Part shown: one piece after another, positions 7,777 to 63,476 of the stretch | Numbering within the stretch: the stretch's first letter is position 1 | Layout: every line of letters starts with the position of its first letter | Source: Deltaproteobacteria bacterium RIFCSPHIGHO2_02_FULL_44_16 | GTDB taxonomy: Bacteria > UBA10199 > 2-02-FULL-44-16 | Length of the DNA: 64,000 bases | Assembly: GCA_001798185.1 (NCBI GenBank) | Contig: MGRM01000014.1 | Span: forward strand, 1-64,000 | Direction: 5' to 3' | Position numbers and translations under genes: made by a program | The notes under the pieces: generated by a model | The model's database searches: none | What the model was told of the DNA's origin: nothing | Seen by the model: the letters and a program-made list of their open reading frames with translations, nothing else

Positions 7777-8495
7777 AAACGAAGTTTTGTTTTGCCATAA
7801 CGATTGTTTCTTTCTTGTTCGCTTGTCAGGGAAAACAACCTCCTTCGGCATCGCTTCGTCTTTTCTCTGCACATGAGACCGTTTTTTCTCGCATGCTTCA
7901 TCAAAGATTTCTGGCGGAACAATCAACTCGAAGTGTCGTTCGAGGTTTGGCTGAAATGACATGGCGCGATTCACATGGTACTCGCACTTCTGATGTCGCT
8001 CTTCATCTTCAACTTCCTCACGATCTTACAGCAGAAGCTTTTGATGCTCTTGCGGATGTGTGGGCGAAAATCCGAACCGACGGGAAGAAATTTTTTTTTG
8101 AGGTGCTGACAGATCGTGGGAAAAGACGCGGAAAAACAACAGAGCGACATCTGGCGAAATTTTTTTCTTTTGAATGGGAAACCGAAGAGTTCGTGGCAGC
8201 GCTTGCGGGAACGCTCCCTTTTTTAACTTCAGATATTTTTCTTGAAGAAAATCGTTCTCTCTTTCATTTTCAGCAGAGACCTTTCACGTTTCGAATTGAT
8301 CAAAAGGGGAGAGTGCTTTCGTATCGTCGTGGAGATGAATCAGGCACAAAGACTCTTTATGAAGTTCATTTTTCTGACTATCGATTGCATGGGAAAACTT
8401 TTTTCCCTTATCGTGTTGTGATCAAACTCCAAGAGAGAGAGTTGTCTCTTCGTTATCGTGAGGTGAAGTTCAATGAAGATGAGAAGTCATTTTAA
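7773..8495 (+). CDS. LolB-like lipoprotein
   Basis: The 240-residue protein has a lipoprotein signal (ITIVSFLFAC). Its body matches the LolB/DUF4292 pattern: an early G-A-x-M-x-W strand (VRGLAEMTWRD), antiparallel strands, and a late VHFSDYRLHGKTFFPYRVVI typical of the half-barrel's last strands. Start GTG 7773 overlaps the TPR gene stop (GTGA). Such proteins help place lipoproteins in the outer membrane; assignment is by fold pattern only. Its final codons (AAG TCA TTT TAA) form the left arm of P1 element 1. Confidence 0.6.
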   Translation: MKTKFCFAITIVSFLFACQGKQPPSASLRLFSAHETVFSRMLHQRFLAEQSTRSVVRGLAEMTWRDSHGTRTSDVALHLQLPHDLTAEAFDALADVWAKIRTDGKKFFFEVLTDRGKRRGKTTERHLAKFFSFEWETEEFVAALAGTLPFLTSDIFLEENRSLFHFQQRPFTFRIDQKGRVLSYRRGDESGTKTLYEVHFSDYRLHGKTFFPYRVVIKLQERELSLRYREVKFNEDEKSF

Positions 8496-8613
8496 AACAT
8501 TTCGTTGTTGCGGGTCCTGTCACCTCCGCCGTTCCACCTCCCCGCTGGCGCGGGGCGCCCCTGGGATCCAGCGTCGGCGACACCCGGACTATGTGGATTT
8601 TAAAATGACTTCT
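8482..8613 (+). repeat. P1 palindromic element, copy 1
   Basis: The outer arms AGAAGTCATTTTAAAA (8482-8497) and TTTTAAAATGACTTCT (8598-8613) are perfect 16-base inverted repeats. The GC-rich core between them begins GCGGGTCCTGTCACCTCCGC, contains the hairpin CCCCGCTGGCGCGGGG and ends GGCGACACCCG. The left arm holds the stop of the LolB-like gene, and the right arm holds the start ATG of the peptide-binding protein. Core subtype A, shared with copies 4, 5 and 7. Confidence 0.9.
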
Positions 8614-10188
8614 AAAATTTTTTTCACGCTGCTGTTTCTGTTATTAACAAGTTGCACCTATCGACTGGAGCGGGATGCTCGTGAATTGGTGATGCATCTT
8701 GCCGCAGAGCCTGCAACGCTCAATCTTCTCACGTATTCGGATCATTATGGTGCTCAAGTTTTAGGCAATATCTATGAACGTTTGATCGACGTGGATGCAA
8801 AAACGCTTACGTTTACTCCAAAACTTGCGACGCATTGGGAAATTTCAGCAGACGGCAAAACGATTACCTTTTTTCTCCGTGAGAATATTCGTTGGCACGA
8901 CGGATTTCCTTTTACGGCAGACGATGTGATATTTACATTTGAGCGTATTCTCGATCCCGCAGTGGATGCTCCACGCCTTCGTCAGCAATATCTCGATGTC
9001 GAAAAGTTGGAGAAGATTAACGACTATACTATTCAGTTTCATTATAAACGTCCCTATTTTGGCGCTTTTTTTACGGCAGGAGCACTTCCTGTTCTTCCGA
9101 AGCATGTTTTTAAAGCTGGCGAAAATTTTAATGCACATGAAATTGGGCGTAGTCCCATAGGAACAGGGCCTTATCGTTTTGTGTCGTGGGAGAAAGGACG
9201 ATCACTGCGTCTTGTGCGTCACGAGGAATATTGGGATCATAAACCACAAATCAAAGGAATCGTTTTTAATATTATTCCCAATGGCACCGTTGCATTTCAA
9301 TTCTTGAAAAAGGGAGGACTCGATCTTTTTGAACTCTCTCCGATGCAATGGGAAAAGCAGAGCTCGAGTCATTCTTTTCAAGAGCGTTTTCGTAAGTATC
9401 ACTATTTCCCTCCTAATTTTTCTTTTATTGCATGGAATATGAGGCGGCCTCTTTTTGCGGATAAACGTGTGAGGCAAGCGATGACCATGCTTCTCGATCG
9501 TTCTTCCATTATCGAGAAACAACTTGGTGGCTTAGGGAAGATAGTGACCGGAAGTGCCTATCCTCTCAGCAAAGATTACGATACTTCGATTGAACCTCTT
9601 CCATATAACCCTGAAAGGGCAATAGCTCTTTTGCGCGAAGCGGGATTTGATGATCACGATGGAGATGGACTGCTCGATCGAGAGGGAGTTGTTTTTGAAT
9701 TTACCTATCTCTATCCAAATAACTCGAACTTTGGGAAAAAAATTGGATTGCTTCTGCAACGGCAGCTGCAAAATGTCGGCATTCGAATGCATCTCGAACA
9801 ATTAGAATGGGCGACACTTCTTTCTCGTATGCAAAAGCGTGACTTCGATGCATTATCGCTCTCATGGATTCCTCCACTTCAGGCCGATCCGTTTCAACTT
9901 TGGCATTCTTCACAAGCAGATCGAGGTTCCAATATTTCGGGATTTCGACATGCAGAAGTGGATCGTCTCTTGGAAGAGGGAAGAACTCTTTTTGATGAAG
10001 ACGAGAGAGCCAAAAGATATCAAAAGGTGCATCGTTTGCTTTATGAGGAACAACCCGTGCTTTTTTTATTTCAGATGCCGACGCTTGCTGCTGTCAGTAA
10101 GAGATTTGAAAATGTTCAAGCATATCCTTTAGGGCTGAAGCCTCGAGAGTGGACAATTGAGAGTACCGCAATGCTGAAAGCATGGTGA
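8605..10188 (+). CDS. peptide ABC transporter substrate-binding lipoprotein (family 5)
   Basis: The 527-residue protein starts with a lipoprotein signal (FFTLLFLLLTSC) and matches DppA/OppA: ATHWEISADGKTITFFLREN, WHDGFPFTADDVIFTFERI and RSPIGTGPYRFVSWEKG are hallmark stretches of SBP_bac_5. It should capture oligopeptides outside the inner membrane for the permeases that follow. Start ATG 8605 gives the signal peptide at once; it lies in the right arm of P1 copy 1, and the open frame continues upstream through the element to 8473, giving an Arg-rich extension that is probably not used. First gene of a five-gene transporter operon. Confidence 0.93.
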   Translation: MTSKIFFTLLFLLLTSCTYRLERDARELVMHLAAEPATLNLLTYSDHYGAQVLGNIYERLIDVDAKTLTFTPKLATHWEISADGKTITFFLRENIRWHDGFPFTADDVIFTFERILDPAVDAPRLRQQYLDVEKLEKINDYTIQFHYKRPYFGAFFTAGALPVLPKHVFKAGENFNAHEIGRSPIGTGPYRFVSWEKGRSLRLVRHEEYWDHKPQIKGIVFNIIPNGTVAFQFLKKGGLDLFELSPMQWEKQSSSHSFQERFRKYHYFPPNFSFIAWNMRRPLFADKRVRQAMTMLLDRSSIIEKQLGGLGKIVTGSAYPLSKDYDTSIEPLPYNPERAIALLREAGFDDHDGDGLLDREGVVFEFTYLYPNNSNFGKKIGLLLQRQLQNVGIRMHLEQLEWATLLSRMQKRDFDALSLSWIPPLQADPFQLWHSSQADRGSNISGFRHAEVDRLLEEGRTLFDEDERAKRYQKVHRLLYEEQPVLFLFQMPTLAAVSKRFENVQAYPLGLKPREWTIESTAMLKAW

Positions 10189-12013: not shown

Positions 12014-12991
12014 ATGTCTTTATTAGAAGTGAAACATCTCGAGACACATTTTTATCACGAAAAATCGGTGATCAAGGCTGTCGATGGCGTCTCACTTTAT
12101 TTAGCCAAAGGGGAAGCTGTCGGTATTGTCGGCGAAAGTGGTTGTGGAAAAAGTGTTTTTGCCCACTCTCTTTTGCGGTTAATCCCTTCTTCTCATGGCC
12201 GCATTGTGGGAGGAGCGATTATGTATCATCTTCCTCATCAACCAAATCCGATCGATTTGATGAAACTTCCGGAAGAAAAGATGCGTTCGTTGCGGGGAAA
12301 AAGAATGGCCATGATTTTTCAAGAGCCGATGACATCGCTCAATCCACTCTCTACGATTGGAGATCAAATTGCAGAGGCGATCGCTCTTCATGAAGGCGGG
12401 AGTCGTGCGGTGATTCGCGATCGTACGCTTGAAATGTTACAGCTTGTGGGGATTCCCGTTCCAGAGAAACGGATTGATGCTTTTCCGCATGAACTCTCGG
12501 GTGGAATGCGTCAGCGAGCCATGATTGCGATGGCGCTTTCGTGTAAGCCTGACATTCTGATTGCAGATGAACCGACCACAGCGCTTGATGTGACGATTCA
12601 AGCTCAAATTTTGGAACTTCTCGCAAAGCTTCGTGAACAATTGGGAATGGCGCTGCTTCTGATTACGCATGACTTAGGAGTTGTGGCTGAAGTCGCGCAT
12701 CGCGTGATGGTGATGTATGCGGGAAAATGTGTTGAAGAAGGGACGGTGCAAGAAATTTTTCATCACCCAAAACATCCCTATACACAGGCGCTTCTTCGAG
12801 CTCTCCCTTCTTTTGGAAAAAGAGGAGGAAAGCTTCCCACGATTCCAGGAGCTGTCCCTTCGCTCGCACATTTGCCTGAGGGATGTGCGTTTCAAGATCG
12901 CTGCCCCAAAGTACAAGAGCGATGTCGAAAAGGTGCGGTTCCTGATGATCCGTCTCATGTCGGAAGACTGGTGAGATGCTATTATGCATAA
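12014..12991 (+). CDS. peptide ABC transporter ATPase, DppD/OppD type
   Basis: The 325-residue nucleotide-binding subunit has Walker A GESGCGKS, signature LSGGMRQR, Walker B ILIADEPTTALD and the OppD/DppD C-terminal domain with clustered cysteines (CAFQDRCPKVQERC), which in this family bind an Fe-S cluster or stabilise the tail. ATG 12014 has AGGA just upstream. Its stop codon lies in the left arm of P1 copy 2, which separates it from the second ATPase gene. Confidence 0.94.
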   Translation: MSLLEVKHLETHFYHEKSVIKAVDGVSLYLAKGEAVGIVGESGCGKSVFAHSLLRLIPSSHGRIVGGAIMYHLPHQPNPIDLMKLPEEKMRSLRGKRMAMIFQEPMTSLNPLSTIGDQIAEAIALHEGGSRAVIRDRTLEMLQLVGIPVPEKRIDAFPHELSGGMRQRAMIAMALSCKPDILIADEPTTALDVTIQAQILELLAKLREQLGMALLLITHDLGVVAEVAHRVMVMYAGKCVEEGTVQEIFHHPKHPYTQALLRALPSFGKRGGKLPTIPGAVPSLAHLPEGCAFQDRCPKVQERCRKGAVPDDPSHVGRLVRCYYA

Positions 12992-13129
12992 AGCTTATTT
13001 TCAAAAGTATTTATTGTCTGCGGGTCCTGCCGCCTGCGGCATTCCGGAAGTTTTGCTGATACGCAATAACTTCCGAAATAGCCTCCGGCGTCACCCGCAG
13101 TTAATTATCTCTTTTGAAATAAATTTTAT
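12988..13129 (+). repeat. P1 palindromic element, copy 2
   Basis: Imperfect inverted arms (ATAAAGCTTATTTTCAAAAG at 12988-13007, CTTTTGAAATAAATTTTAT at 13111-13129) surround a subtype B core: CTGCGGGTCCTGCCGCCTGC ... GGCGTCACCCGCAG with an internal CCGGAAGTTTT / AACTTCCG hairpin. The left arm contains the stop codon of the first ATPase gene. The element ends before the ribosome site AAAAGGA of the second, so the operon is interrupted but no protein is. Confidence 0.85.
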
Positions 13130-13141
13130 GAAAAGGATTTT

Positions 13142-37120: not shown

Positions 37121-37785
37121 AAAAATTTTTCTCTCATGTTTCCTCGTCACTTCTCACATTTTTTTATCCTTCTCGATGTCCTTTGTGTGAAGCGTGGTCG
37201 CTTCATCATGATAAAGTATGTGAGACATGTGTCTCTTCTCTTCATCCTCTCCCTGCTGCATTTACTGCGCCCATATTGCATCGTGTCTGGTTTCAAGAAG
37301 CAAGGAGCGCTGTGGCGTATGAAGGGAAGTTAATCGATGCGATCTGGAATTTTAAATATCATGAACGATTTGATCTTCTTCCTTTCTTTACGCACCTTCT
37401 TTTCAAAAGTTTTCCCGAAAAAACGTATGATCTGATGCTCCCTGTTCCGTTACATCAAAAGAAACTTGCGAAAAGAGGCTTTAATCAGGCGGGAATGCTT
37501 GTGCAGTCGCTTTCTGCACGGATAGGCGTTCCGCATGATCTTTTTCTTCTCGAGCGAAGACGTGCAACAGAGACGCAAGTGAGAAAAGAGGTGAAAGAGA
37601 GAGAAGAAAATGTTCGCGATGCATTTGCGATTAAACTTTCTCAGAAAGAAAAACTTTCTCAAAAAAATGTTTTGTTGATTGATGATGTCATCACTACAGG
37701 CGCAACCGTCAATGAATGTGCAAAAGCGCTTATCAAAGGAGGGGTTCAATCGGTCGATGTCTTGACGATTGCACGACCATTATGA
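37117..37785 (+). CDS. ComF family phosphoribosyltransferase-like protein
   Basis: The 222-residue protein has an N-terminal zinc-finger-like CPLCEAWSLHHDKVCETC and a C-terminal PRPP-binding motif LLIDDVITTGATV, as in ComFC/GntX. These proteins are tied to DNA uptake or processing in some species. ATG 37117 overlaps the gpmI stop. Its own stop codon begins the left arm of P1 copy 3. Confidence 0.9.
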   Translation: MKKFFSHVSSSLLTFFYPSRCPLCEAWSLHHDKVCETCVSSLHPLPAAFTAPILHRVWFQEARSAVAYEGKLIDAIWNFKYHERFDLLPFFTHLLFKSFPEKTYDLMLPVPLHQKKLAKRGFNQAGMLVQSLSARIGVPHDLFLLERRRATETQVRKEVKEREENVRDAFAIKLSQKEKLSQKNVLLIDDVITTGATVNECAKALIKGGVQSVDVLTIARPL

Positions 37786-37923
37786 AAGCGTTTTTCAAAA
37801 CAGATCAAGATTCGGGTGACGCCGGAGCGTGTTCCGGGAGGTCTCCGTCTTTAGCGGAGGGCCGGAACACCGCAGGCGGCAGGACCCGTATCCAATGAGC
37901 AAACGTTTTTAAAAACGCTTTTC
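37784..37923 (-). repeat. P1 palindromic element, copy 3
   Basis: Arms GAAAGCGTTTTTCAAAAC (37784-37801) and GTTTTTAAAAACGCTTTTC (37905-37923) are inverted repeats with one mismatch and one extra base. The core, read on the minus strand, is subtype B (CGGGTCCTGCCGCCTGCGG ... GGCGTCACCCG). The left arm overlaps the ComF stop TGA. It lies between the ComF gene and the inositol phosphatase gene. Confidence 0.88.
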
Positions 37924-46188: not shown

Positions 46189-46213
46189 TGATTTTCCAAA
46201 TTTTAAAAAAATA

Positions 46214-46602: not shown

Positions 46603-46667
46603 ACAAAATGGTGGCGCAAAAGATGATTTTGTCGTCACTTGCCACGATCTCATCATGGCAAATCACG

Positions 46668-46695
46668 TTGACTTTTAAAGTTGCATCTCGATAAT
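46668..46695 (+). promoter_or_regulatory. possible gyrA promoter
   Basis: TTGACT (46668-46673), 16-base spacer, GATAAT (46690-46695). If used, P1 copy 4 (46711-46847) would be transcribed as the gyrA leader and would fold into a strong hairpin just before the ribosome site. The 384-base gap between HU and gyrA holds only the two promoters and this element. Confidence 0.45.
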
Positions 46696-46710
46696 GCCAA
46701 ATCAACTGAT

Positions 46711-46847
46711 GAGAACTTATTTCAAAATGTTTGCTGTTCGCGGGTCCTGTCACCAGCGCCGTTCCACCTCCCCGCTGACGCGGGGCACCCCTGGGATCCG
46801 GACGCTGATGCCACCCACAATCATCACCAATTTTGAAATAAGTTCTC
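46711..46847 (+). repeat. P1 palindromic element, copy 4
   Basis: Arms GAGAACTTATTTCAAAAT (46711-46728) and ATTTTGAAATAAGTTCTC (46830-46847) are perfect 18-base inverted repeats. The core is subtype A (CGCGGGTCCTGTCACC ... CCCCGCTGACGCGGGG ... GGGATCC). The element ends 9 bases before the gyrA ribosome site AAGGAG. Confidence 0.92.
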
Positions 46848-46870
46848 TATGCTTTTAAGGAGTCACCATC

Positions 46871-50773: not shown

Positions 50774-50776
50774 GAG

Positions 50777-51556: not shown

Positions 51557-51618
51557 TCCTCGACAAAGGAAAAAAGATCCGCTACGACAAAAAAAAATCT
51601 TGAACAAAGGAGATGTCC

Positions 51619-52053: not shown

Positions 52054-52064
52054 GGTTGGTGAGT

Positions 52065-53738
52065 ATGTCTGAGCAAGAGGCTCATAAACTTCTCGACTCG
52101 TATCTTGCTTTATTTCTTCCTCTCGAAGAGGAGATGAGTCAGAAATGGTATGCCTATGCCGTTTCAGGGGATAAAGAACTTTCACAGCAAACCACCGAAG
52201 CTGAATTTCAGTTACGAAAACTCCACAGCGATAAAAAATATTTTTCAGAGTTTCGTCAGTTCTATGAAGGAAGAACCAATATAAGAGAGCGCAAGCTCCG
52301 ACGAGAAATAGAGCTGGCATATTTGCGATATCTCCCCAATCAGGTTGATCCCACAAAACTCGAAAAGCTCACAATACTTGAAGGACGTTTGCGGGAACTT
52401 GCGAATGATTATCGTCCCACCGTTGAAGGAAAGAGACTTGGGCCTGACGAAGTTTCGCGCATTCTGGTTGAAAACACCGATTCTCTTTATCTTGAAAAAG
52501 TGTGGAAAGAACAGACTCGTGTGGGTGAAGTTCTCGAAGAAGATTATCGTCAAGTGGTTTCACTTCGCAACGAAATTGCTCGAGATCTCGGGTTTTCAAA
52601 TTTTATTGAACTTTCTGCCGTCGCGACTGAACTTGATTTGAAACAGATCAATCGTTTTTATGATGATCTTGAAAAAAAGACGACGCAGCCATTCCAAAAG
52701 TTAAAAACGAAATTTCTCGATCCAAAATTAGCAAAGCGATATAACATAAAAACTAATGAGCTTTTCCCGTGGCACTATCAAAATCAATATTTTCAGGATG
52801 TTCCTTCTGCTGTCTTTGAAAAATTACATCTTGATGATGTGTATAAAGGAAAAGATTCTCATGTGGTCGTGGCAAAGACGTCCGATTTTTTTGCAAGTAT
52901 GGGAATCGATGTTGCTTCGATCATCAAGCGTTCAAGCCTTTTTCCCAAAGAGGGGAAAAATCCACACGCTTTTGCAACGATGCTCAAGCGCGAACCTGGT
53001 TCCTCAGTGCTTTTAATGAATCTCCCGCATCCTCCAAAATCTCCAAGCGCTCGCGATGTAGCAGTTTTATTTCATGAACTCGCGCATGACATTCATTATG
53101 AAGCAGTGCTTCAGAATAAAAAACTGCCGGTTTCCTTAAAGGAACTCCCACTTCTGACAGAAGCGAATTCCATTCTTTTTGAGAGTCAAACACGCACTCC
53201 TGAATGGCTGATGAGTTTTGGGGTGAGTCGGAAAGAAGCGAATGAGATCATACAGCAAGTGAAACTTCGTCAATATGTAGAAGAACTGGTATTTCTTCGT
53301 TTTGCGTGTGTCATGCATGCTTTTGAAGCACGTTTTTATGCAGATCCTTCGCAGGATATCGGATATCTCTGGTGGGAATGTAAAGAGAGATACCAGTTCC
53401 TGAAACGCCCACAGGGCTGGAAAAATCCAGATGCGCTTGCAAAATATCATATTCCCAATGTTCCACCGCTTTATTATCCCTATTATGCGATTGGACATAT
53501 TGCGAATGCAGAATTTGCGGAACTCTTTTCTCGTCGTATTGATCAAGATCCGCAAACGGCAAGTTACTATCATCAAAAAGAACTCGGAACGTGGCTCATG
53601 ACCGATTTTTTAGCGCAAGGTCAATTGTATCGTTGGGATGAATATCTCGAGAAAACAACAGGGCATTCTCTTTCGCTTGATGCGTGGGAGCGATGTTATC
53701 TTCAGTCTCATGTGGAAGAGCAACTATTTCCTTTATGA
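52065..53738 (+). CDS. M2/M3-like gluzincin peptidase
   Basis: The 557-residue protein has HELAHDIHYE at about residue 337 and the third ligand Glu in LLTEANSILFE, the arrangement of clan MA peptidases with long helical scaffolds. The helical N-terminal half and the YYPYYAIGHIANAEF stretch fit bacterial M2 (ACE-like) or M3 oligopeptidases. No signal peptide, so it would cut peptides in the cytoplasm, matching the peptide transporter elsewhere here. ATG 52065 gives MSEQEAHKL. Co-transcribed with ndk and the next gene. Confidence 0.8.
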   Translation: MSEQEAHKLLDSYLALFLPLEEEMSQKWYAYAVSGDKELSQQTTEAEFQLRKLHSDKKYFSEFRQFYEGRTNIRERKLRREIELAYLRYLPNQVDPTKLEKLTILEGRLRELANDYRPTVEGKRLGPDEVSRILVENTDSLYLEKVWKEQTRVGEVLEEDYRQVVSLRNEIARDLGFSNFIELSAVATELDLKQINRFYDDLEKKTTQPFQKLKTKFLDPKLAKRYNIKTNELFPWHYQNQYFQDVPSAVFEKLHLDDVYKGKDSHVVVAKTSDFFASMGIDVASIIKRSSLFPKEGKNPHAFATMLKREPGSSVLLMNLPHPPKSPSARDVAVLFHELAHDIHYEAVLQNKKLPVSLKELPLLTEANSILFESQTRTPEWLMSFGVSRKEANEIIQQVKLRQYVEELVFLRFACVMHAFEARFYADPSQDIGYLWWECKERYQFLKRPQGWKNPDALAKYHIPNVPPLYYPYYAIGHIANAEFAELFSRRIDQDPQTASYYHQKELGTWLMTDFLAQGQLYRWDEYLEKTTGHSLSLDAWERCYLQSHVEEQLFPL

Positions 53739-54631
53739 TCGATGCTTTTGAAAAAGAGAGATTGCTTGCGCGGAGTAAGCGAGAGATTTTTTTTGAATAT
53801 GCAGTGATCACCTTTGGCAGTGTGATCTTTGCTCTTGCAGTCGTTCTTTTTCTTCTTCCCTATCAAGTGGCACCAGGTGGCGTCACGGGTGCTGCAATTA
53901 TCATTCATTTTCTGACTCATTTCCCGGTTGGCGTTACCATGTTCACCATCAACATGGTTATTTTTTTGCTGGGACTCAAAACGCTCGGAGTCGATTTTAC
54001 GATGAAAAGTATTTATGCCTCCGCTGTTATTTCGTTTTGTACCGATCTTTTCCATGAAGTGTGGCATCTTCAGATGCCGATTCGCGATGCGGTGTTAGCT
54101 CCTGTTTTTGGGGGAGTTGTTTTAGGTGTCGGGCTTGGACTTATCATTCGCATGGGAGGGGGGACCTCCGGTTCGAATACGCTTGCTCGTGTTATTTCTC
54201 GTTATACTAATCTCAAACAAGGCGCTGCGATTTTTGTGATCAACAGTGGAGTCATTGCCGCTGCGGGAATTATTTTTAAAAGCGCTGATCTTGCGCTCTA
54301 TGGCTATGTTGCCGTGTACACCTCTTCTCTTGTCATCGATTTTATTGTTGAAGGATTTGAATATGCGCGCGGTGCTTACATCATTTCATCACGCAATATC
54401 GAAATCGCTGACATGATTGTCTATGAAATGGGGAGAGGAGTGACAACACTGAGTGGCCGAGGTTTTTATACGCAAGAAGATCGTGGCGTTCTTTTTACGG
54501 TCATGCCTCGTAAAGAGATTCATGATCTCATTACCATTGTAAAGCGCATCGATCCGAAAGCGTTTGTGATTATTATGCCTGTCCATGAAGTGCTTGGCGA
54601 AGGTTTCAAAATGCGCCGCCAAAGAGTCTAA
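53735..54631 (+). CDS. YitT family membrane protein (DUF161 plus DUF2179)
   Basis: The 298-residue protein has five to six membrane segments with PGGVTGAAII and GLIIRMGGGTSGSNTLARVI, the YitT/DUF161 core, and a C-terminal soluble DUF2179 domain (GRGFYTQEDRGVLFTVMPRK). The transported or sensed compound is unknown for the family. ATG 53735 overlaps the peptidase stop (ATGA). An upstream frame extension reads into the peptidase gene and is not used. Confidence 0.9.
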   Translation: MIDAFEKERLLARSKREIFFEYAVITFGSVIFALAVVLFLLPYQVAPGGVTGAAIIIHFLTHFPVGVTMFTINMVIFLLGLKTLGVDFTMKSIYASAVISFCTDLFHEVWHLQMPIRDAVLAPVFGGVVLGVGLGLIIRMGGGTSGSNTLARVISRYTNLKQGAAIFVINSGVIAAAGIIFKSADLALYGYVAVYTSSLVIDFIVEGFEYARGAYIISSRNIEIADMIVYEMGRGVTTLSGRGFYTQEDRGVLFTVMPRKEIHDLITIVKRIDPKAFVIIMPVHEVLGEGFKMRRQRV

Positions 54632-55416
54632 TGTCCATGCACGTTGTCAAAAAAAGAGGGGAAGGCCCTCCATGCTTTTTGCTGCATGGTGGTCCTGGAT
54701 TTGACTCCTCTTACTTTGATCCTTTTTTGCAACCTCTTGAAAAAAGCCTGCGGCTTTTCTTTTTGGAGCATGATCGGGATGCTCCGGAATATACACTTGA
54801 AAATATTGTGAATGGCATTGAAAAACTTCGACGAGAGAGTGGGCATGAAAAAATATTACTTCTGGGTCATTCTGCAGGAGGACTTTTCAGCCTTTCCTAT
54901 GCGATACATTTTCCTCACAATGTAATGGGACTTATTCTCGAGTCCACAGCAGCTGATAAAAGTTTTGTCAAAGAGAGCGAACAAGCGATCAAAGCATATC
55001 CCGATGCTCTTGCTGGTCTTCAGGAATATATTGCGAGTGATCGGACGGACGAAGATTATAAAAAAATGTCACTTCGTTATATTCCCTTTTCCGTGATGCC
55101 AGAGGCACAGAAATCGGCATTAGTGGTGTTTGACAACATACATTATAATGCTCGCCTTTTTGAAGAGACGAAGAAGAAGATATTGCCATACTTTTCTGCG
55201 CGAGAGCATTTACCAAAACTTACAATGCCAACCCTTGTCATCACCGGAAAACATGATCGAGTTGTTGCTCCATCATATTCACAAGAGCTTGCCGAAAAAA
55301 TGCCAAACGCTGAATTTGTCATGCTCGAAAACAGTGGCCACTTCCCACATCTCGAAGAGCCAAAGAAATTTTGTGAGGTTGTAGAAGATTGGATGAACCG
55401 ATATTGGCCATCTTAA
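54631..55416 (+). CDS. alpha/beta hydrolase, proline iminopeptidase-like
   Basis: The 261-residue protein has HGGPGFDSSYF (oxyanion hole), the nucleophile elbow GHSAGG, Asp in VITGKHDRVV and the catalytic His in ENSGHFPHLEEP, a complete triad. HGGPG is typical of proline iminopeptidases and their relatives. ATG 54631 shares a base with the preceding stop. It may finish peptide breakdown together with the M2/M3-like enzyme two genes upstream (inference). Confidence 0.85.
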   Translation: MSMHVVKKRGEGPPCFLLHGGPGFDSSYFDPFLQPLEKSLRLFFLEHDRDAPEYTLENIVNGIEKLRRESGHEKILLLGHSAGGLFSLSYAIHFPHNVMGLILESTAADKSFVKESEQAIKAYPDALAGLQEYIASDRTDEDYKKMSLRYIPFSVMPEAQKSALVVFDNIHYNARLFEETKKKILPYFSAREHLPKLTMPTLVITGKHDRVVAPSYSQELAEKMPNAEFVMLENSGHFPHLEEPKKFCEVVEDWMNRYWPS

Positions 55417-55522
55417 CTCTTGCTCCATCTGGTGTGTCCGCGCACTGGTGTGTCCGCGACTTTACTTGTTTCCTCAAAAATATTACGATGACAACCGGTG
55501 ATTCTGAAAAGGAGATTTATTT

Positions 55523-57142
55523 ATGGGTTCAAAATCCATTTTTCGATTTGCCTTTTTTATTTTTGTCTTCCTTTTCTCTTTTTCCGAAGTTTTTGCCCAA
55601 ACTGCGTTTCCTTGTCCTCTGACACCTTTTGCGGGCAATGGCGGCGTGGGAAATACTGGCGATGGAGGAGCGGCAACAGCGGCGTCGCTCTCAAGGCCAG
55701 TTGAATTCACGTTCGATTCTGCAGGGAATGCCTACATTATCAGTGAGCATAAGGTGCGAAAAGTTGATCGCAATGGAAATATTTCAACCTTTGCAGGGAC
55801 TGGAGTTTTCGGATTCTTTGGAGACGGAGGAGCGGCAACGCAGGCACAGCTCGATGAGCCGGTAGATATCGCGACCGACCTTCAGGGAAATGTTTATATT
55901 GCAGATAGTAAAAATGGCCGGATTCGCAAAGTCGATCTGAATGGTATCATCACCACTGTTGCAGGGAATGGGAACCAAGGGGTTGAACCACAAAATGGAC
56001 TTTTAGCCACTTCCATCAAGCTCGGGGTGACTTTGCAAAACTATCAGAATCGCATGTCTGGGCTTACAGCAATCACATTGGACCGACAAGGCAACCTCTA
56101 TGTCGCACTTGGAGACAATGAAACTTGCCGCATTGAAAGGTCCCAAAATATTATCAAAGTAGATACCAGTGGCCACATTACATTAATACCACTTCCTGAC
56201 GATTGCCCATTCCGACTCAAAACCGACAACAATGGAAATCTCTATTATCTCGGTGAAACATCGCGCCTCGGTCACGCGTTACGCGACAGAATTTATAAAA
56301 TTGATACGAACGGAAATGTTACGGTTGTGGCAGGAACTGGTATACGAGGTTCATCTGGGGACGGTGGTCTCGCAACGAGCGCCCAAATTTCGATTGATAC
56401 GCGCTTTCTCTCGGGCTTGAATGGATTGGCACTCGATCTCCATGGAAATCTCTATTTTATTGAGCCGGGACCGCTCGCAGCGCGACAGAACAAACTGAGA
56501 AAAATTGATCAAGCAGGAATTATTCGTTCTTATCTCATCACAAACGATGCAGCCGGTTACCCCATTAGTCTTTCAGATATAGAATTTGATAAGGACAATA
56601 TTTTTTATGGTGCTGGTATTTTTAGTATTCTCAAATGTAATTATTGTGCACAGCAAAACATCCAGATTGATGATAACAATTCCTGTACACAGGACTCCTG
56701 TATTTTCTTGGACGGCTCTATTCTCCATGATCCCATTCCCTTCAACGGTCAAACTTGTTCAGACAGTAACATCTGCGATGGAACGAGCGCTTGTTCGAAT
56801 GGCCAATGCAGAAATCGTCCTCAAACGCGTCCGGCTGATGGAACGAGTTGCCCTCTTCCTGCTGATCCTTTTACAGGGCTTGTAAGGCAGGGGATTTGTC
56901 AGCGAGGACAATGCGTGCAGGGTGGCACGGTTAACTGGCCTCCTCCAAAACCACCGGTCGTGGATGCTTCTTGTTTTGAGCAGTTAAAAAAATTGCCACC
57001 AAATCCATGTGTTACAAAGAGCTGCAATGCTCTCAATAAAGTTGTCAGCTCTTACAAAGCAGATTTTACTCCTTGTGAAGAAGGAAAAGTATGTTGTTCA
57101 GGTGCGTGTCTCTTTCGAAACCAGTGTGGAGAACCCAATTAA
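55523..57142 (+). CDS. secreted NHL-repeat protein with Cys-rich C-terminus
   Basis: The 539-residue protein has a signal peptide ending SEVFAQ, then NHL-type beta-propeller blades marked by TPFAGNGGVGNTGDGG, DLQGNVYIADSKNGRIRKVD and LDLHGNLYFIE (about residues 30-370), followed by a Cys-rich tail with about 20 Cys (CTQDSCIF, CDGTSACSNGQCRNRP, CCSGACLFRNQC). Such secreted propellers bind proteins or polymers. AAGGAG lies ten bases before ATG 55523. The preceding gap has a direct repeat TGGTGTGTCCGCG (55431, 55447). Confidence 0.83.
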   Translation: MGSKSIFRFAFFIFVFLFSFSEVFAQTAFPCPLTPFAGNGGVGNTGDGGAATAASLSRPVEFTFDSAGNAYIISEHKVRKVDRNGNISTFAGTGVFGFFGDGGAATQAQLDEPVDIATDLQGNVYIADSKNGRIRKVDLNGIITTVAGNGNQGVEPQNGLLATSIKLGVTLQNYQNRMSGLTAITLDRQGNLYVALGDNETCRIERSQNIIKVDTSGHITLIPLPDDCPFRLKTDNNGNLYYLGETSRLGHALRDRIYKIDTNGNVTVVAGTGIRGSSGDGGLATSAQISIDTRFLSGLNGLALDLHGNLYFIEPGPLAARQNKLRKIDQAGIIRSYLITNDAAGYPISLSDIEFDKDNIFYGAGIFSILKCNYCAQQNIQIDDNNSCTQDSCIFLDGSILHDPIPFNGQTCSDSNICDGTSACSNGQCRNRPQTRPADGTSCPLPADPFTGLVRQGICQRGQCVQGGTVNWPPPKPPVVDASCFEQLKKLPPNPCVTKSCNALNKVVSSYKADFTPCEEGKVCCSGACLFRNQCGEPN

Positions 57143-58323
57143 ATTTTCTCAAAAAAATTTGGATTGATTTTTTTAAGATAGGAGATTTCAGATTGAAAGA
57201 ACCTTTCTGATTGTCGAAAGAGAGAAAAATACTTCTCAATCAATGGTCCATCGTTTGGAAAGAGCTGCTTTAAAGTTTTTTCTGCCTGGCCAGCTTCTTT
57301 CACGCTCATAGCGCGTGCAAGAAAGATAAGAGCTGTAAGTTTTGGCAACCTCTCTTCGCGATTGGGGATTTTTAGTTCAACGTTTTCCCTCACTTTATCG
57401 GGAGCGACACCATCGGGAAGAAGATCCTTGAGATGTCGACGAAGACCATTGGCGTAACCTCTCTTCACTTCAGATGATGCTGCTATCTGATAAAAAATGC
57501 CATCGCAGGCTTCTCTCGTATATTGTTTGATAATTTTTTGTTCCCTCTCACTCTTTGCTGCAGCAAGTATTTCTTTGAGAAGAATGCCGCCTTTGGGACT
57601 CTTCATCATTGCATCTGTATAGCTCGATGCCCCCCATTTTTGAGCAATTTTTTGCTGGAGATCATGACCTCGTTCATGCCGCACGAGCATCTGCCATTGT
57701 CGTGGAAGAGTCGCATCATCAGTCTGATCTGAAATTCTATATCCAAGACAGAGATAGACAGTCTTTCCTTTTTTTCCAAATGTCACTAAAGCAGCGGCGG
57801 TTTCACAAAGGAGTCCGTAGAAACAAGGAAGTTCTGGTTCAGAACACTCCCGACCTGTACGAGAAAAAACCTCGCTCCCCCATCTATCATCAGTAGCTAC
57901 GATGGCTGCCAACTCCAGAAAGTCTTGAGAAGAAGGAGGGGACGGTGTTCGGCCGGATCTCATGACCTCTTTTTGATCCAATTTAAAAAATAATCGATCA
58001 GAGGAAGAAAGAGTTTTTATCCGATCGTAATTGCTTTGAGCCTGAGCTGACAATTCTGCTTTCGCAACTGAAACGATGGGGTATTCAATTTCACCAGCTT
58101 GAGTGCGCGGTAAAAGGCCAATCTGTCCATTATTTCCATCAAGTGAATCGATTTTGGTTAATTGTGTCAATGCTCGGATTACTTGATCGGCATCGAGGTA
58201 AAAATCACCTGAAGGTCGATTGATCTTCACGTAACCTTGGCCGTCGATTTTGTTGGGTTTGATTCCACGCAAAGCTTGATACCAGGAATCAGCCACGTCT
58301 TTATTGGTAAGGAAGATATCCAT
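57139..58323 (-). CDS. HERGH metallopeptidase-like protein of unknown family
   Basis: The 394-residue protein has HERGHD at residue 216 and TREACDG about 54 residues later, which could supply a Glu zinc ligand. No signal peptide or membrane segment is seen. The C-terminal third is helical. HExxH with a downstream Glu suggests a zincin, but the rest is unlike families I know. AAGGAA precedes ATG 58323. Its stop overlaps that of the NHL gene by four bases. Confidence 0.6.
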   Translation of the reverse strand: MDIFLTNKDVADSWYQALRGIKPNKIDGQGYVKINRPSGDFYLDADQVIRALTQLTKIDSLDGNNGQIGLLPRTQAGEIEYPIVSVAKAELSAQAQSNYDRIKTLSSSDRLFFKLDQKEVMRSGRTPSPPSSQDFLELAAIVATDDRWGSEVFSRTGRECSEPELPCFYGLLCETAAALVTFGKKGKTVYLCLGYRISDQTDDATLPRQWQMLVRHERGHDLQQKIAQKWGASSYTDAMMKSPKGGILLKEILAAAKSEREQKIIKQYTREACDGIFYQIAASSEVKRGYANGLRRHLKDLLPDGVAPDKVRENVELKIPNREERLPKLTALIFLARAMSVKEAGQAEKTLKQLFPNDGPLIEKYFSLFRQSERFFQSEISYLKKINPNFFEKI

Positions 58324-58403
58324 AGAATTTTTATCGTTCCTTCTTTGAAATTGTTGCTTTTCTTAAAGATTGAAAATGAATGAAGAACTGGTGAATTTTC
58401 TTG

Positions 58404-58474
58404 AGCGGGCGATGGGAATCGAACCCACGTCTCAAGCTTGGGAAGCTCACATTCTACCATTGAACCACGCCCGC
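58404..58474 (-). tRNA. tRNA-Gly (anticodon CCC)
   Basis: Minus-strand cloverleaf of 71 bases: acceptor GCGGGCG / CGCCCGC with discriminator T, D arm GGTTCAATGGTAGAA, anticodon stem TGAGC/GCTTG around loop TTCCCAA, T arm GTGGGTTCGATTCCCAT. CCA is not encoded. Confidence 0.95.
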
Positions 58475-58533
58475 AGAACTGTCAGAGCGTATACCAACTG
58501 GACTTTTTTGCTGCAATAGCATTTCATCTCCGT

Positions 58534-58722
58534 ATGAAGAAACTCACCAAAATAAAATGCCCTTACTGTGGAGGAGCGACAGTGTGGGAAGAGAATCTTT
58601 ATCGTCCCTTTTGCTCGGAGCGTTGTAAGCTGCTCGATCTTGGGAAATGGGCAAGTGATGAATATCGCATTGAGGGTGAAAAAACCTCAGATCCCAAAGA
58701 CACAGAAGATGATGACCAATAA
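58534..58722 (+). CDS. yacG: zinc-finger protein YacG (DNA gyrase inhibitor family)
   Basis: The 62-residue protein has [27 protein letters not shown] and YRIEG, the YacG/DUF329 zinc finger (C-x2-C...C-x3-C). The E. coli member binds GyrB and inhibits gyrase. It has an acidic tail. ATG 58534 is chosen for the family N-terminus; the ribosome site is weak. It is the second gyrase-related gene in the window, 8 kb from gyrA, so any link is indirect. Confidence 0.88.
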
Positions 58723-58899
58723 TAATTCGAATTCTCAACAGCTGCTTCGGCTGAACTTTCTCGGGCCGCTCCGTTGCGGGTCGACCCGCAACGTTCGCTT
58801 AGCTCTCAACAATTTTAAATTTAACCCCGTTTGTGAAAATTATTTCGAGATACCCTGCGAAAGCTTCAACCTCGCGCGCTGTTGAGAAATGGTTTTTGA

Positions 58900-59529
58900 T
58901 TAAAGTGTATGAATAAAATCAGCTAGGTGTTTTGGTGAATGGAGAATATAATCTGCTCGTGCGTCCCGTAACTTTTGTTCACTGTGAAGTCCCCAGGTTA
59001 CTCCGATAGCGGTGATACCTGCGAGTTTGGCTTCTTTCATGTCTCCAATCGTATCCCCGATGTAAAATGTTCGATTTTTTTCGAGAGAAGATTTTTCAAG
59101 CAGGAAGTGAATGCGGTCAACTTTATTTGTAGCCCCATCTCCTCCAAGAATATCGGTGAAATGAGAAGTCAGCGAATGTGACGTCAATATTCTGTTGATC
59201 GTCAACGTGGTATTGGACGAAACAATGGAATTTGTTGTTTTCAGTTCAATGTTTTGAAAAAATTCAGGAATTCCCTCAAAGAGAGAGATGTGATTCGTCT
59301 CACTTGCCTTGTCCAATTCAAGAAGAATCTCGTTAATATGATGTTGATGAACACCTCGTTTTTGAAATCCATAAATAACATTCGTTTCAAAAAGAGCCTG
59401 TAAATCTTCAGGAGATTGAAGAAAATTATATTCGAGTGCGATGAGGCGATCGTAGACAAGCTGCTGATAGAGGTTCAGAGAGTCTGCGATGACGCCATCG
59501 AAATCAAAAATGAGAAGAGGTTTCTTCAT
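58900..59529 (-). CDS. HAD family phosphatase, phosphoglycolate-phosphatase-like
   Basis: The 209-residue protein has HAD motif I LLIFDFDGVIADS, motif II IVSSNTT, Lys in the DGATNKVDRI region, and motif IV YIGDTIGDMKEA, with a helical cap between I and II. This fits Gph-like phosphatases; the substrate is not shown. ATG 59529 overlaps the mutY stop (TGA) by one base pair step, so it is translated with mutY. Downstream (58772-58793) lies a 22-base perfect palindrome built on TTGCGGGTCGACCCGCAA. Confidence 0.88.
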   Translation of the reverse strand: MKKPLLIFDFDGVIADSLNLYQQLVYDRLIALEYNFLQSPEDLQALFETNVIYGFQKRGVHQHHINEILLELDKASETNHISLFEGIPEFFQNIELKTTNSIVSSNTTLTINRILTSHSLTSHFTDILGGDGATNKVDRIHFLLEKSSLEKNRTFYIGDTIGDMKEAKLAGITAIGVTWGLHSEQKLRDARADYILHSPKHLADFIHTL

Positions 59530-60698
59530 GCTTGGGGGTCTACAAAGCGGGCTTTGACAAGTTTTGCAATCACTTCTTTGTTTGCAGGGGGAAATGTATA
59601 TTGGGTCAGCTCTTGTGGCTTAATCCATTTCATTTGCTGTGCCTCTTGCGATTTTGGTTTTCCCTTAAGAATCGAGCAGCGATGAAATCGGATATGAACC
59701 TGTCGATCTTCATAGGTGTAATCAGCTGTCCAATCGTGAGGCCGCACAGCTACTTCAATTCCTAACTCCTCTTTTATTTCTCGCTTGATGCAATCACGCC
59801 ACGACTCTTTTCCTTGTCGTTTGCCACCAGGGAATTCCCAATAGCCCTCAAGATGTTTTCCTTCGGGACGGCGTGTGATGAGAATGTTTCCATTTTTGTG
59901 AATGATCGCTGCCGCGATTTCGATTGATGGTGTACGAGAACGGGTTTCAAAACTGATGGGATACGGGTGTCGCCGAGGTCGGATCCCAGGGGCGCCCCGC
60001 GCCAGCGGGGATGTGGAACGACCGAGGTGACGGGCCCTGGAACCAATTTGTAGCGTTTTGAAATCCGTTCTCGATAAGGTTGAATACGAGCATAAGGGTC
60101 TCATCGGACAGATCAAACATGTCGGATCTTTCGCAGTACAAACAGCTGATCCAAAATCCATCATGGCTTGATGAAAGGCCCAAGATTTTTTCTTCGGCAC
60201 AAAATCAGCAGCATGCTCAGCCACTTCTTTGAGAAGATTCTTTCCGGTAATCCCAAACACACGCGAGAGAACCCGACTGGTATTGGTGTCAAGCACGAGC
60301 ACATCTTGTTCATATGCAAAAACTGCAATTGCACGGGCAGTGTAAGGACCAATTCCTGGAAGTGCTTCAAGGTCTTCGACCTTTTCGGGAAAGATTCCTT
60401 TATATTGTTGAACAATAACCTTTGCTGCTCGCAACATATTACGTGCACGACGGTAGTATCCGAGACCGCGCCATGCCGAGAGGACTTGTGGCCACCTTGC
60501 TTTGGCAAGTGTTTTGATATCGGGGAATTTTTGAAAGAAACGCTGATAATAATCGATGACCCGATCAACTTGGGTTTGTTGGAGCATCATTTCAGAAACC
60601 CAAATCTTGTAGGGATCACGTGTCTTGCGCCACGGAAGATTACGACCATTGGTTTCAAACCATTTTAGAAGCTGCGATGTAAATTGACGATGATTCAT
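59526..60698 (-). CDS. mutY: adenine DNA glycosylase MutY carrying an in-frame P1 insertion
   Basis: The 390-residue protein has the glycosylase Glu in WVSEMMLQQTQV, helix-hairpin-helix LPGIGPYTA, catalytic Asp in VLDTNTSRV and the Fe-S cluster C-x6-C-x2-C-x5-C (CTAKDPTCLICPMRPLC). The C-terminal part is a NUDIX-like domain (GYWEFPGGKRQGKESWRDCI). MutY removes A opposite 8-oxoG. Between Fe-S and NUDIX domains, residues about 209-255 are encoded by P1 copy 5 and give an Arg/Pro-rich segment ([14 protein letters not shown]) absent from normal MutY. It lies in the linker, so function is probably kept. Confidence 0.93.
   Translation of the reverse strand: MNHRQFTSQLLKWFETNGRNLPWRKTRDPYKIWVSEMMLQQTQVDRVIDYYQRFFQKFPDIKTLAKARWPQVLSAWRGLGYYRRARNMLRAAKVIVQQYKGIFPEKVEDLEALPGIGPYTARAIAVFAYEQDVLVLDTNTSRVLSRVFGITGKNLLKEVAEHAADFVPKKKSWAFHQAMMDFGSAVCTAKDPTCLICPMRPLCSYSTLSRTDFKTLQIGSRARHLGRSTSPLARGAPGIRPRRHPYPISFETRSRTPSIEIAAAIIHKNGNILITRRPEGKHLEGYWEFPGGKRQGKESWRDCIKREIKEELGIEVAVRPHDWTADYTYEDRQVHIRFHRCSILKGKPKSQEAQQMKWIKPQELTQYTFPPANKEVIAKLVKARFVDPQA
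59935..60073 (-). repeat. P1 palindromic element, copy 5, inside mutY
   Basis: Arms CGAGAACGGGTTTCAAAAC (59935-59953) and GTTTTGAAATCCGTTCTCG (60055-60073) are inverted repeats with one mismatch. The core, on the minus strand, is subtype A. It is read in the gene's frame without a stop, in the same orientation and frame as the upstream extension of the peptide-binding protein in copy 1 (shared peptide [12 protein letters not shown]). Confidence 0.92.
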
Positions 60699-60857
60699 GC
60701 AGATGGAAAATCTTCAATATTGTTTCTCGGCATGGATCGTGATGTACATGATCGCCGTATGCGTCTGCAAGTATTTGTACAAAGCTCTGAAATCTCCTTG
60801 ATAGCTCCTCCAGAATGTTTTAAGCGCTTTCAGTCTTCTTTATAGGTTGTGTGCTTG

Positions 60858-60929
60858 GGGCGCTTAGCTCAGCGGCAGAGCGTCTGCTTTACACGCAGAG
60901 GGTCGCAGGTTCAAATCCTGCAGCGCCCA
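60858..60929 (+). tRNA. tRNA-Val (anticodon TAC)
   Basis: A 72-base cloverleaf: acceptor GGGCGCT/AGCGCCC with discriminator A, D arm GCTC...GAGC, anticodon stem TCTGC/GCAGA around TTTACAC, variable loop GGGTC, T arm GCAGG-TTCAAAT-CCTGC. No encoded CCA. Confidence 0.95.
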
Positions 60930-61009
60930 CAGAACGAAAAACATGAACGAATAAGTCGATTTTTATTGACGTTCTTCGTCGTTCGGTAAAATTTGCTACA
61001 TCCAATTTT

Positions 61010-61083
61010 GGGGCGGTAGTTCAGCTGGTTAGAACGCATGCCTGTCACGCATGAGGTCGCGGGTTCGATCCCCGTCCGCCCCG
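61010..61083 (+). tRNA. tRNA-Asp (anticodon GTC)
   Basis: A 74-base cloverleaf: acceptor GGGGCGG/CCGCCCC with discriminator G, D arm GTTCAGCTGGTTAGAAC, anticodon loop CTGTCAC in stem CATGC/GCATG, T arm GCGGG-TTCGATC-CCCGT. It follows tRNA-Val by 80 bases, and the uppP ATG begins only seven bases after its end. Confidence 0.95.
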
Positions 61084-61090
61084 CATCACT

Positions 61091-61903
61091 ATGCATCATA
61101 TCTCGATTCTCCACGCGATCATTCTTGGGATTATTCAAGGCGCCACCGAGTTTCTCCCCATTTCCAGTAGCGGTCATTTGGTATTAGCCCAAAATCTTTT
61201 GGGGGTTGATCTCGAAAAAGAAGCACTCCTTGCATTTGATATTGCGCTTCATTTTGGAACGCTTTTGGCGCTCCTCCTTCTCTTTCGAAAAGATCTGAAG
61301 ACACTCATACAAGGAGCTTTCCAAAAAAATTCAGAAAATCCGCAGAGCGTGCCGTCAAGAAAATTACTCTGGTATCTTTTTTTGGCGACGCTCCCTGCCG
61401 TAGTGATCGGACTTGCGTTCAAAGATTTTTTTGAAGAGATGATGACCGATACGTTTTCGACGGGTGTGCAGTTTATCATCACCGGTTTTATTTTGTGGTC
61501 GACACGATATGCCCGTTTCTCTGTGCTCACAGCGACGCATATGCGATCGATGCATGCACTCATCATCGGCGTTGCTCAAGCAATAGCGATCATTCCGGCT
61601 ATTTCCCGTTCGGGGACTACCATTGCAGCGGCACTTCTTCTTCGTTTCGATCGTGAATTTGCGGCTCGTTTCTCTTTTTTACTTGCGATTCCAGCTTTGG
61701 GAGGAGCGACACTTTTGAGTCTTGACAATCTTCGATATTTTTCTTCAGAAAATCTGCTCGCGACATTGATCGGAACTGTCGTTTCATTCATTGTCGCGAT
61801 CGGCTGCATCAAGTGGTTGATGACGATCATCAAGAAAGGTCAGTTTTCCTGGTTTGCGATCTACTGTTGGATTATTGGTTTATGTGCAATCTTTCTTGCC
61901 TAA
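61091..61903 (+). CDS. uppP: undecaprenyl-diphosphatase (bacitracin resistance, BacA type)
   Basis: The 270-residue membrane protein begins ISILHAIILGIIQGATEFLP with ISSSGHL and has the second motif IPAISRSGTTIAAALLLRF. These are the catalytic regions of UppP, which recycles the undecaprenyl carrier for cell wall synthesis. ATG 61091 is the only start fitting the family but has no Shine-Dalgarno, since the tRNA-Asp ends just upstream. Its stop lies in the left arm of P1 copy 6. Confidence 0.95.
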   Translation: MHHISILHAIILGIIQGATEFLPISSSGHLVLAQNLLGVDLEKEALLAFDIALHFGTLLALLLLFRKDLKTLIQGAFQKNSENPQSVPSRKLLWYLFLATLPAVVIGLAFKDFFEEMMTDTFSTGVQFIITGFILWSTRYARFSVLTATHMRSMHALIIGVAQAIAIIPAISRSGTTIAAALLLRFDREFAARFSFLLAIPALGGATLLSLDNLRYFSSENLLATLIGTVVSFIVAIGCIKWLMTIIKKGQFSWFAIYCWIIGLCAIFLA

Positions 61904-62041
61904 GAAATAATTTTAAAACAGATCAAGATTCGGGTGACGCCGGAGGTGCTTCCGGGAGGGTCTCCCGCGATAAGTGGGAGGGCCGGAACACCGCAGGCGG
62001 CAGGACCCGTATCAATGAAATGTTTTAAAATTATTTCTTAG
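61900..62041 (-). repeat. P1 palindromic element, copy 6
   Basis: Perfect 20-base arms: CTAAGAAATAATTTTAAAAC (61900-61919) and GTTTTAAAATTATTTCTTAG (62022-62041). The core is subtype B, read on the minus strand, nearly identical at its ends to copy 3 (GATCAAGATTCGGGTGACGC, CGCAGGCGGCAGGACCCGTA). Each arm contains a stop codon, one for uppP and one for rarA on the other strand, so both proteins end in the element. Confidence 0.93.
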
Positions 62042-63476
62042 AAGATGTGCGCCACTTCTTTAATCGTTCAGAGATTTCTTTTTCTTCCCCGTTTTCGGTC
62101 GGTTCATAATAAATGGTCCCTTGCAGTTTTTCAGGAAGATATTTTTCACCGATAACAAAATTTTCTTCATAGTCATGTGCGTATTTGTAATTCTTGCCGT
62201 AATCGAGTTCCTTCATGAGTTTTGTCGGAGCGTTGCGAATATGTTTTGGTGTTTGCAGCACTCCGTGCTTTTCTATATCTGTTTTTGCTTTCTTGTATGC
62301 CATATAACTCGCATTCGATTTGGGAGCGCTTGCGAGATAGGTCGCGCACTGCGCGAGCGGAATCCATCCTTCAGGCATGCCGACAAAATCAAACGCTTGC
62401 ATGCAGCTGATCGCCACTTGCACTGCTTGCGAATCAGCGTTGCCGATATCTTCTGATGCAAAGATCACCATGCGGCGAGCGCAAAAGAGAGGCTCTTCGC
62501 CGGCCTCTAACATGCGTGCGAGATAGTAGATAGCAGCGTCAGGATCAGAACCGCGCATACTTTTGATGAATGCGCTGATGACATTGTAATGTTCTTCTCC
62601 TTTTTTGTCGTAAAACAGACTTTTTTTCTGCAGCGCTGCTTCGACATGGTTCAGGTTTATGCAAAAACCAATTTCAAAACGATCCGCAGATACGGGTCCT
62701 GTCACCTCCGTCGTTTCACCTCCCCGCTGGCGCGGGGCGCCCCTGGGATCCGACGTCGGTGCCACCCGTACGCCATCTGTTTTGAAATGTGTTTTGACAA
62801 GGTCAGCAGCAATTTCCAATGTATTCAACGCCCGACGTGCATCACCATCAGCGCTTGCGCATAAAAAGTTGAGAGCATCATCGTTCATAGTCAGATGAAA
62901 TTTCCCAAGTCCTTTTTCTTCATCCTGTAAGGCTTTCAACACAACTTTTTTGAGATCACCATGTGAGAGAGGTTCAATCACATAAACTTTGGTTCGAGAA
63001 AGAAGCGCGCCGATGACTTCAAACGAAGGGTTTTCCGTAGTTGAACCGATGATCGTAATCGTGCCGTCTTCAACGTGCGGCAGAAGTGCGTCCTGCTGCG
63101 CTTTATTCCAGCGATGAATTTCATCAATGAAAAGAAGACTTCGCTGACCGTTAAATTTTCGGGCTGTGTTTGCCTCTTCGATAATGTCGCGAAGTTCTTT
63201 GACGCCAGAAAGAACTGCAGAGAGTTGAAAAAATTTTGCTTTCGTGTGATGCGCGATAATTCGTGCGAGCGTGGTTTTCCCCGTTCCCGGAGGTCCCCAG
63301 AAGATGATCGAGGGGAGGGTGTCAGCTTCGATGAGAGACGTAAGAGGTTTCCCTTTGCCGATGAGATGCGTCTGGCCGACAACGTCTTCAAGTATTTTGG
63401 GCCGCATCCGCTCTGCGAGGGGAGCATGAGTGCGCGCGATCTGATCAAAAAGAGTGGCCATAGCTTCATGAATCAT
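62031..63476 (-). CDS. rarA: replication-associated recombination protein RarA (MgsA/WRNIP1 family) with in-frame P1 insertion
   Basis: The 481-residue AAA+ ATPase has [20 protein letters not shown], Walker [14 protein letters not shown], Walker [21 protein letters not shown], sensor 1 [12 protein letters not shown] and the family's C-terminal [20 protein letters not shown]. RarA acts at stalled replication forks. Residues about 228-271 are encoded by P1 copy 7 ([20 protein letters not shown] ...), between [10 protein letters not shown] and [11 protein letters not shown], where other RarA proteins have a short connection. Start ATG 63476; ATG 63461 (MATLFDQ) is possible. The last codons are in P1 copy 6. 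Confidence 0.93.
62664..62795 (+). repeat. P1 palindromic element, copy 7, inside rarA
   Basis: Arms AAAACCAATTTCAAAAC (62664-62680) and GTTTTGAAATGTGTTTT (62779-62795) pair at 15 of 17 positions. Core subtype A, on the plus strand, opposite to the gene. It is read through in the gene's frame without a stop, in a different frame from the mutY copy. Confidence 0.92.

Follow-up and report, generated by a model that had tools for sequence, protein, structure and literature searches.

Several known bacterial systems consist of dispersed palindromes. The Rickettsia palindromic elements (RPE) are stem-loops of 105-150 bp that lie both within and between genes and have no known transposase (PMC2229807, PMC10969869). 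REP sequences and REPINs, which go with the RAYT (TnpA-REP) enzyme, are imperfect palindromes scattered through the genome in high copy number, mostly between genes, and they have a conserved asymmetric bulge (PMC8266576, PMC3116915). Other bacterial MITEs carry conserved terminal inverted repeats and often a TA target duplication (PMC2229807). Stems can also be altered by template switching, which produces mirrored stem changes and loop inversions (PMC8794818), and its published hallmarks are mirrored multi-base changes together with inversion of the loop (PMC8794818, PMC3820800).

The window, i.e., the whole stretch of 64,000 nucleotides that was analyzed, contains seven copies of a palindromic element, P1 (Table 1), and the first-pass annotation had placed all of them to within 1-2 bases. 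It had also described outer arms that pair within a locus and differ between loci, and we find the same: the arms of copies 1, 4 and 6 pair perfectly and those of copy 3 almost so, a single mismatch occurs in copy 5, and the arms of copies 2 and 7 pair imperfectly, with two mismatches each. Both core subtypes and the TTTNAAAAC/GTTTTNAAA boundary are likewise real, and in some copies this boundary is swapped for other paired sequence (TTTCGAAAC/GTTTCGAAA, TCTCCAAAA/TTTTGGAGA or GCGATCATAAAC/GTTTGCGATCGC). All seven copies fold far better than shuffled sequences (z -3.9 to -11). In copy 1, the left arm holds the stop codon of the upstream ORF and the right arm holds an ATG; when its flanks are joined they read ATG-AAA-ATT-TTT-TTC, plausibly the original start of a lipoprotein gene. 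The core of copy 2 is 97% identical to that of another host copy, G000:C28:118287, whose arms differ yet also pair.

Table 1. P1 copies in the window and the two genes that contain copies in frame.
Feature	Coordinates	Strand	Details
P1 copy 1, subtype A	8482..8613	+	Left arm 8482-8498, core 8512-8585, right arm 8598-8613
P1 copy 2, subtype B	12987..13130	+	Arms CATAAAgcTTATTTTCAAAAG / CTTTTGAAATAAatTTTATG, imperfect
P1 copy 3, subtype B	37784..37923	-	Directly adjoins ORF 37117-37785 at its end
P1 copy 4, subtype A	46711..46847	+	Upstream of gyrA; arms perfect over 18 nt (GAGAACTTATTTCAAAAT)
P1 copy 5, subtype A	59935..60073	-	In frame in mutY, between its glycosylase and NUDIX domains
P1 copy 6, subtype B	61900..62041	-	20-21-nt perfect arms; between the ORF ending at 61903 and the end of rarA
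P1 copy 7, subtype A	62663..62797	+	In frame in rarA/mgsA, gene antisense to element; arms with 2 mismatches
mutY (A/G-specific adenine glycosylase) ORF	59526..60698	-	Contains copy 5 in frame
rarA/mgsA ORF	62031..63476	-	Contains copy 7 in frame

The host genome (G000; 1.98 Mb in 29 contigs) has about 70 copies by profile search, the seven of the window included, and 63 host copies are used below. Most host copies are 117-157 nt long with their arms (about 140 bases for the family). A covariance model of the 63 copies has a core stem GGGT[CCT]G...C-ACCC with a one-sided, unpaired CCT bulge, followed outward by a loosely paired stretch, the TTTNAAAAC/GTTTTNAAA stem and about 10 pairs of variable sequence. 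The ends that are conserved read GGGTCCTG/CACCC, and CGTC adjoins CACCC only in some subtypes. The motif GGGTCCTGYC...YCACCC, with a gap of 46-106 nt, was found in 29 of the phylum's 46 genomes (those returned by both the phylum and the class search), while control matches are near zero; the most matches are found in G017 (81), the host genome (57), G015 (25) and G019 (21). A few single motif matches in low-copy genomes look like chance. Beyond the phylum the search covered only the exact 25-nt core pattern, which had one match among GTDB species contigs, in a groundwater Deltaproteobacteria MAG that has the mutY of the relative G002, and none in viral contigs. No Rfam family matches the copies, and only tRNAs were found. 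On the best reading, P1 locally represents a phylum-wide group of small non-autonomous mobile palindromes with the core inside a long stem.

By gene context, 33 of the 63 host copies are flanked by codirectional genes, 7 by convergent and 5 by divergent genes, and 15 lie inside read-through ORFs. That several copies sit in frame inside conserved genes had been missed in the first-pass annotation. At least ten host copies, the one in mutY included, are in frame in genes recognizable by Pfam or NCBIfam; genes with inserts comprise mutY, rarA, miaA, mutL, mnmE, metH, feoB, an ABC ATPase gene and a yggS-like alanine-racemase-like gene, and a PRMT-like methyltransferase gene holds two copies. At pyrD and gltX, the copy may precede the true start of the gene and not lie inside it. 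Of the 15 in-ORF copies, 11 run antisense to the gene that they interrupt, and eight of the 11 share one frame; the open frames and intact domains on either side suggest that the inserts are translated. The mutY gene of the relative G003 has no element, and that of G002 has one in the same linker as copy 5, but its subtype, frame and arms differ. Because of these differences, the mutY linker may be a tolerant spot that has been hit by insertion repeatedly. A main role as intrinsic terminator, which would be a GC stem with a T run behind it, was considered and rejected, as the context is not enriched for convergent genes (33 copies between codirectional vs 7 between convergent genes). None of the four copies within 46000-63500 scored as a terminator.

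The arm pairing described for the window extends to the copies elsewhere in the genome, where the first-pass annotation had proposed to check it. The ten outer pairs of the 63 host copies make 630 cells, of which 480 hold Watson-Crick pairs; when left and right arms were re-dealt between loci (1000 shuffles), the number was 264 on average and never above 302. When the register was fitted per copy, the arms measured 10-26 nt with 3.4% mismatches, a figure that is optimistic because the fit maximizes pairing. Arms are often longer in other genomes (30 and 29 bp in G006, 26 in G007, 25 in G026), and those of G022, G044, G018 and G032 are mostly 24-28 bp and usually perfect or with 1-2 mismatches. 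Acquisition of arms from elsewhere in the genome was not supported, as each of 22 long arms searched in its own genome matches only its own two arms.

We regard the observations as a whole as best explained by a mobile palindrome whose arms are inserted with the core and later co-changed by DNA-level recopying, and give this a probability of roughly 0.58. The outer stem arms are part of the element and arrive with it, as empty sites show (see below), after which they diverge fast, locus by locus, while a change in one arm would be copied to the other at the DNA level, thereby keeping complementarity. The copying step would most likely be template switching at the hairpin during replication; hairpin-templated or template-switch synthesis, as already put forward in the first-pass annotation, is still the best mechanism for the pairing of the arms. 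The same process could also invert the core between the arms, and cores could be exchanged or replaced between loci (one case seen of each). Insertions persist at operon gene junctions and in frame in conserved genes.

Concerted change of the arms can be followed in the three filled orthologous pairs of loci found in G022 and G044, whose flanks differ by 5-18%; nearly every arm change there is mirrored. The L254/L266 arms show 9 differences over 26 positions, each of them mirrored, and both copies are paired at 26/26. L262/L264 has two arm differences, both mirrored, and L257/L265 has about four mirrored substitutions and one mirrored indel (about 5 positions per arm). Pairing in the six copies is 26/26, 26/26, 24/25, 25/26, 26/26 and 26/26. 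At the divergence rate of the flanks about 16 broken pairs would be expected, whereas two are seen (Poisson P ~1e-5), both at arm ends. The mutational spectrum rests on about 15 mirrored changes from these three pairs, about nine of which are transversion pairs that cannot pass through G-U. Additionally, the L262/L264 core is inverted between orthologous flanks, and the L257/L265 cores differ in subtype (72 vs 96 nt).

Selection could also keep the arms paired through compensatory drift if the long stem is functional, i.e., for RNA stability, as an RNase target or as a protein-bound DNA cruciform. This would account for the roughly 97% of fitted arm positions that stay paired, for the A-rich left and T-rich right bias that the window arms keep, and for the many copies in operons beside stop and start codons, a position from which a stem could act on the mRNA. 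However, few mismatched intermediates are seen and the double changes are mostly of the transversion type, with one mirrored indel and one core inversion besides. Mismatches oriented by transcription show no G-U excess either: the host arms have 9 G-U and 8 A-C mismatches, which are few events oriented from simple ORF calls, and such near-equal counts are not what selection on an RNA stem predicts. Unoriented G017 arms have 1 G-U and 9 A-C. These arguments weigh on an RNA stem and less on a selected perfect DNA palindrome, and the sequences alone would fit recopying as well as selection for such a palindrome. Collectively, we consider a functional stem the strongest of the alternatives but unlikely.

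A further alternative is that the arms are rewritten during transposition, when one arm of a hairpin or single-strand intermediate would be resynthesized with errors and copied to the other. Such a mobile hairpin rewriting its own arms would surround the conserved core with a perfect palindrome that is private to each insertion, and cores could move between arm pairs that already exist. In its favor, 14 G017 copies have an identical 69-nt core and differing arms, the 22 long arms match no parent copy, and for the recent G022 insertions no copy with closely related arms was found. Nevertheless, the arms of one genome retain a fading common consensus; in G022 they are alike between loci beyond shuffles (0/400, in outer and inner halves) and so have a shared ancestry. 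Arms at orthologous loci also change in concert with no new insertion, so transposition is not needed. We therefore hold arm rewriting, in either wording, to be improbable. Under DNA-level recopying, on the other hand, the identical G017 cores with unlike arms need an extra assumption, which could be core replacement, strong constraint on the core, or arm rewriting at the time of transposition; core replacement would be the explanation under the preferred reading. The lack of a closely related parent copy for the recent G022 insertions likewise counts against recopying.

The origin of the arms was addressed with ten G022 copies, the flanks of which were searched in six related genomes. At the intergenic site L256 the element is missing from G044, where the flanks are 95-98% identical, and also from G027 and G018. 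Site L258 lies inside dnaE, where the element forms a 48-aa in-frame insert that is missing from G044 and G018; the dnaE ORFs of G022 and G044 have 90% amino acid identity. Neither arm is present at the empty L256 and L258 sites, which shows that the arms were inserted together with the core. At L259, G044 has only a core end and the right arm, identical over 25 nt, and this is a deletion remnant. The first-pass annotation had raised the idea of a locus-specific duplication, in which one target flank would be copied in inverted form to the other side at insertion; that the inverted arms are specific to each locus beyond chance holds, but the inverted target copy fails, as the sister species lack both arms at their empty dnaE and intergenic sites. 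Arms that pair and differ between loci would fit such a duplication, but they have a family consensus, and we consider it very unlikely. The annotation had also named a palindrome already present at empty sites as evidence against its idea, and the empty sites contain no such palindrome. Insertion of the core into pre-existing palindromes such as terminators is the least credible explanation: hairpin-seeking elements exist, and one G022 insertion adjoins an unrelated hairpin in the empty site, but the empty sites lack the palindrome, copies lie inside coding sequence, and the joined arms would make perfect 52-bp palindromes with no loop.

The search for a Y1 transposase or reverse transcriptase suggested by the first-pass annotation yielded neither as a gene common to the carriers. 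Y1 (HUH) transposases occur in many genomes with and without elements, and none was detected in the carriers G019 (98% complete), G040 and G044. RVT_1 had no match in G017 (81 copies), G015 and G019, the richest carriers besides the host genome, which leaves non-RVT_1 or trans-acting enzymes as possible options.

Compared with known systems, P1 behaves like other small mobile palindromes, among them the palindromic elements of Rickettsia and Wolbachia, which are likewise non-autonomous long stem-loops of 105-150 bp and likewise lie in frame in conserved genes and between genes. As a dispersed palindrome of this size with about 70 copies, 15 of 63 in read-through ORFs, P1 matches RPE in both respects. 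The likeness is drawn from descriptions of RPE, and the two belong to different phyla with no taxonomic link. Moreover, the terminal inverted repeats of RPE are conserved, whereas the terminal arms of P1 are locus-specific and mirrored, and no report of such arms was found in the RPE literature examined. P1 adds phylum-wide mobile palindromes with in-frame insertion in protein genes outside Rickettsiales, in one species within the gene for the replicative DNA polymerase.

With REP/REPIN, P1 shares dispersed imperfect palindromes, a conserved asymmetric bulge, a high copy number and a mostly intergenic location, but REP sequences are 20-50 bp and the P1 family 120-155 bp, and the GTAG tag of the GTAG/CGTC ends of REP is absent from the P1 consensus. 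The MITEs ERIC, Correia/NEMIS and RUP are likewise stem-forming, of 100-200 bp and partly with open frames. Conserved terminal inverted repeats, a trait of DDE MITEs, were not found in P1, the termini of which differ per locus, and there is no target site duplication of fixed length, with flank direct repeats of 0-3 nt (mostly 0-1) and inconsistent length. We do not class P1 as RPE, REP or classical MITE, since a search for conserved terminal repeats, the GTAG tag and target duplications found none of them.

Template-switch (quasi-palindrome) mutation shares with P1 the mirrored changes without intermediates and the loop inversion, as seen in the small sample of three orthologous pairs. Template switching is a mutation process and not an element, and in P1 its action would have recurred within a single mobile family. 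Whether paired stem changes originate stepwise or in a single event is debated; each P1 copy is a natural record of arm-to-arm copying, so that stepwise compensation and single template-switch events can be tested against each other at many loci in one genome family. Collectively, the P1 family is best read as an RPE- or MITE-like mobile palindrome whose arms evolve in concert at the DNA level, probably through template switching, with selection on the stem or arm rewriting at transposition as possible alternatives.

A stem of 6-7 bp within the core of the G019 elements (loci L234-L249) likewise varies in mirrored form, with the variants CTCGGG/CCCGAG, CTTAAGG/CCTTAAG and CTGGGGG/CCCCCAG. Comparing L256, an intergenic element site in G022, with L284 in G044, the loop of the adjacent hairpin reads CTCACGG in the former and CCGTGAG in the latter. 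From the sequences, this loop appears inverted between the genomes, possibly another template-switch flip.

In the host genome, the two copies in the methyltransferase ORF are spaced 37 nt apart, and each is read through in a different frame. The three half copies could serve as controls for unpaired arm evolution. The gyrA ORF carries the splicing motifs of an intein's N-terminal (aa 111-189) and C-terminal (aa 573-596) ends, i.e., it encodes a gyrase A containing an intein. The inverted repeat in the window is separate from P1 and located at the end of ORF 31843-33363.

Coordinates of the features (G000, host genome)
Feature	Position	Description
L021/L089	G000:C4:29547-29860	two P1 copies, same PRMT-like methyltransferase ORF
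P1 half copies	G000:C12:83759, C22:84327, C7:32447	one arm and part of core kept
gyrA ORF	window 46871-50773	1300 aa; intein splicing motifs
Inverted repeat	window 33361-33434	74 nt; TAAGTGCCGTGCACTTA...TAAGTGCACGGCACTTA; without P1 core

G017 has a second element layout (L176, L184, L197, L199, L204, L208, L211, L213, L216-L219, L221, L227, L229, L230 and L232), where the linker around the core is fixed (...GGAGCTTCG/CTTCGCTCC...) and the paired arms, which are specific to each locus (types AAAAACGC, GGAATCGC and GCAATCGC), are found ~20-30 nt farther outward. This layout resembles that of the host genome.
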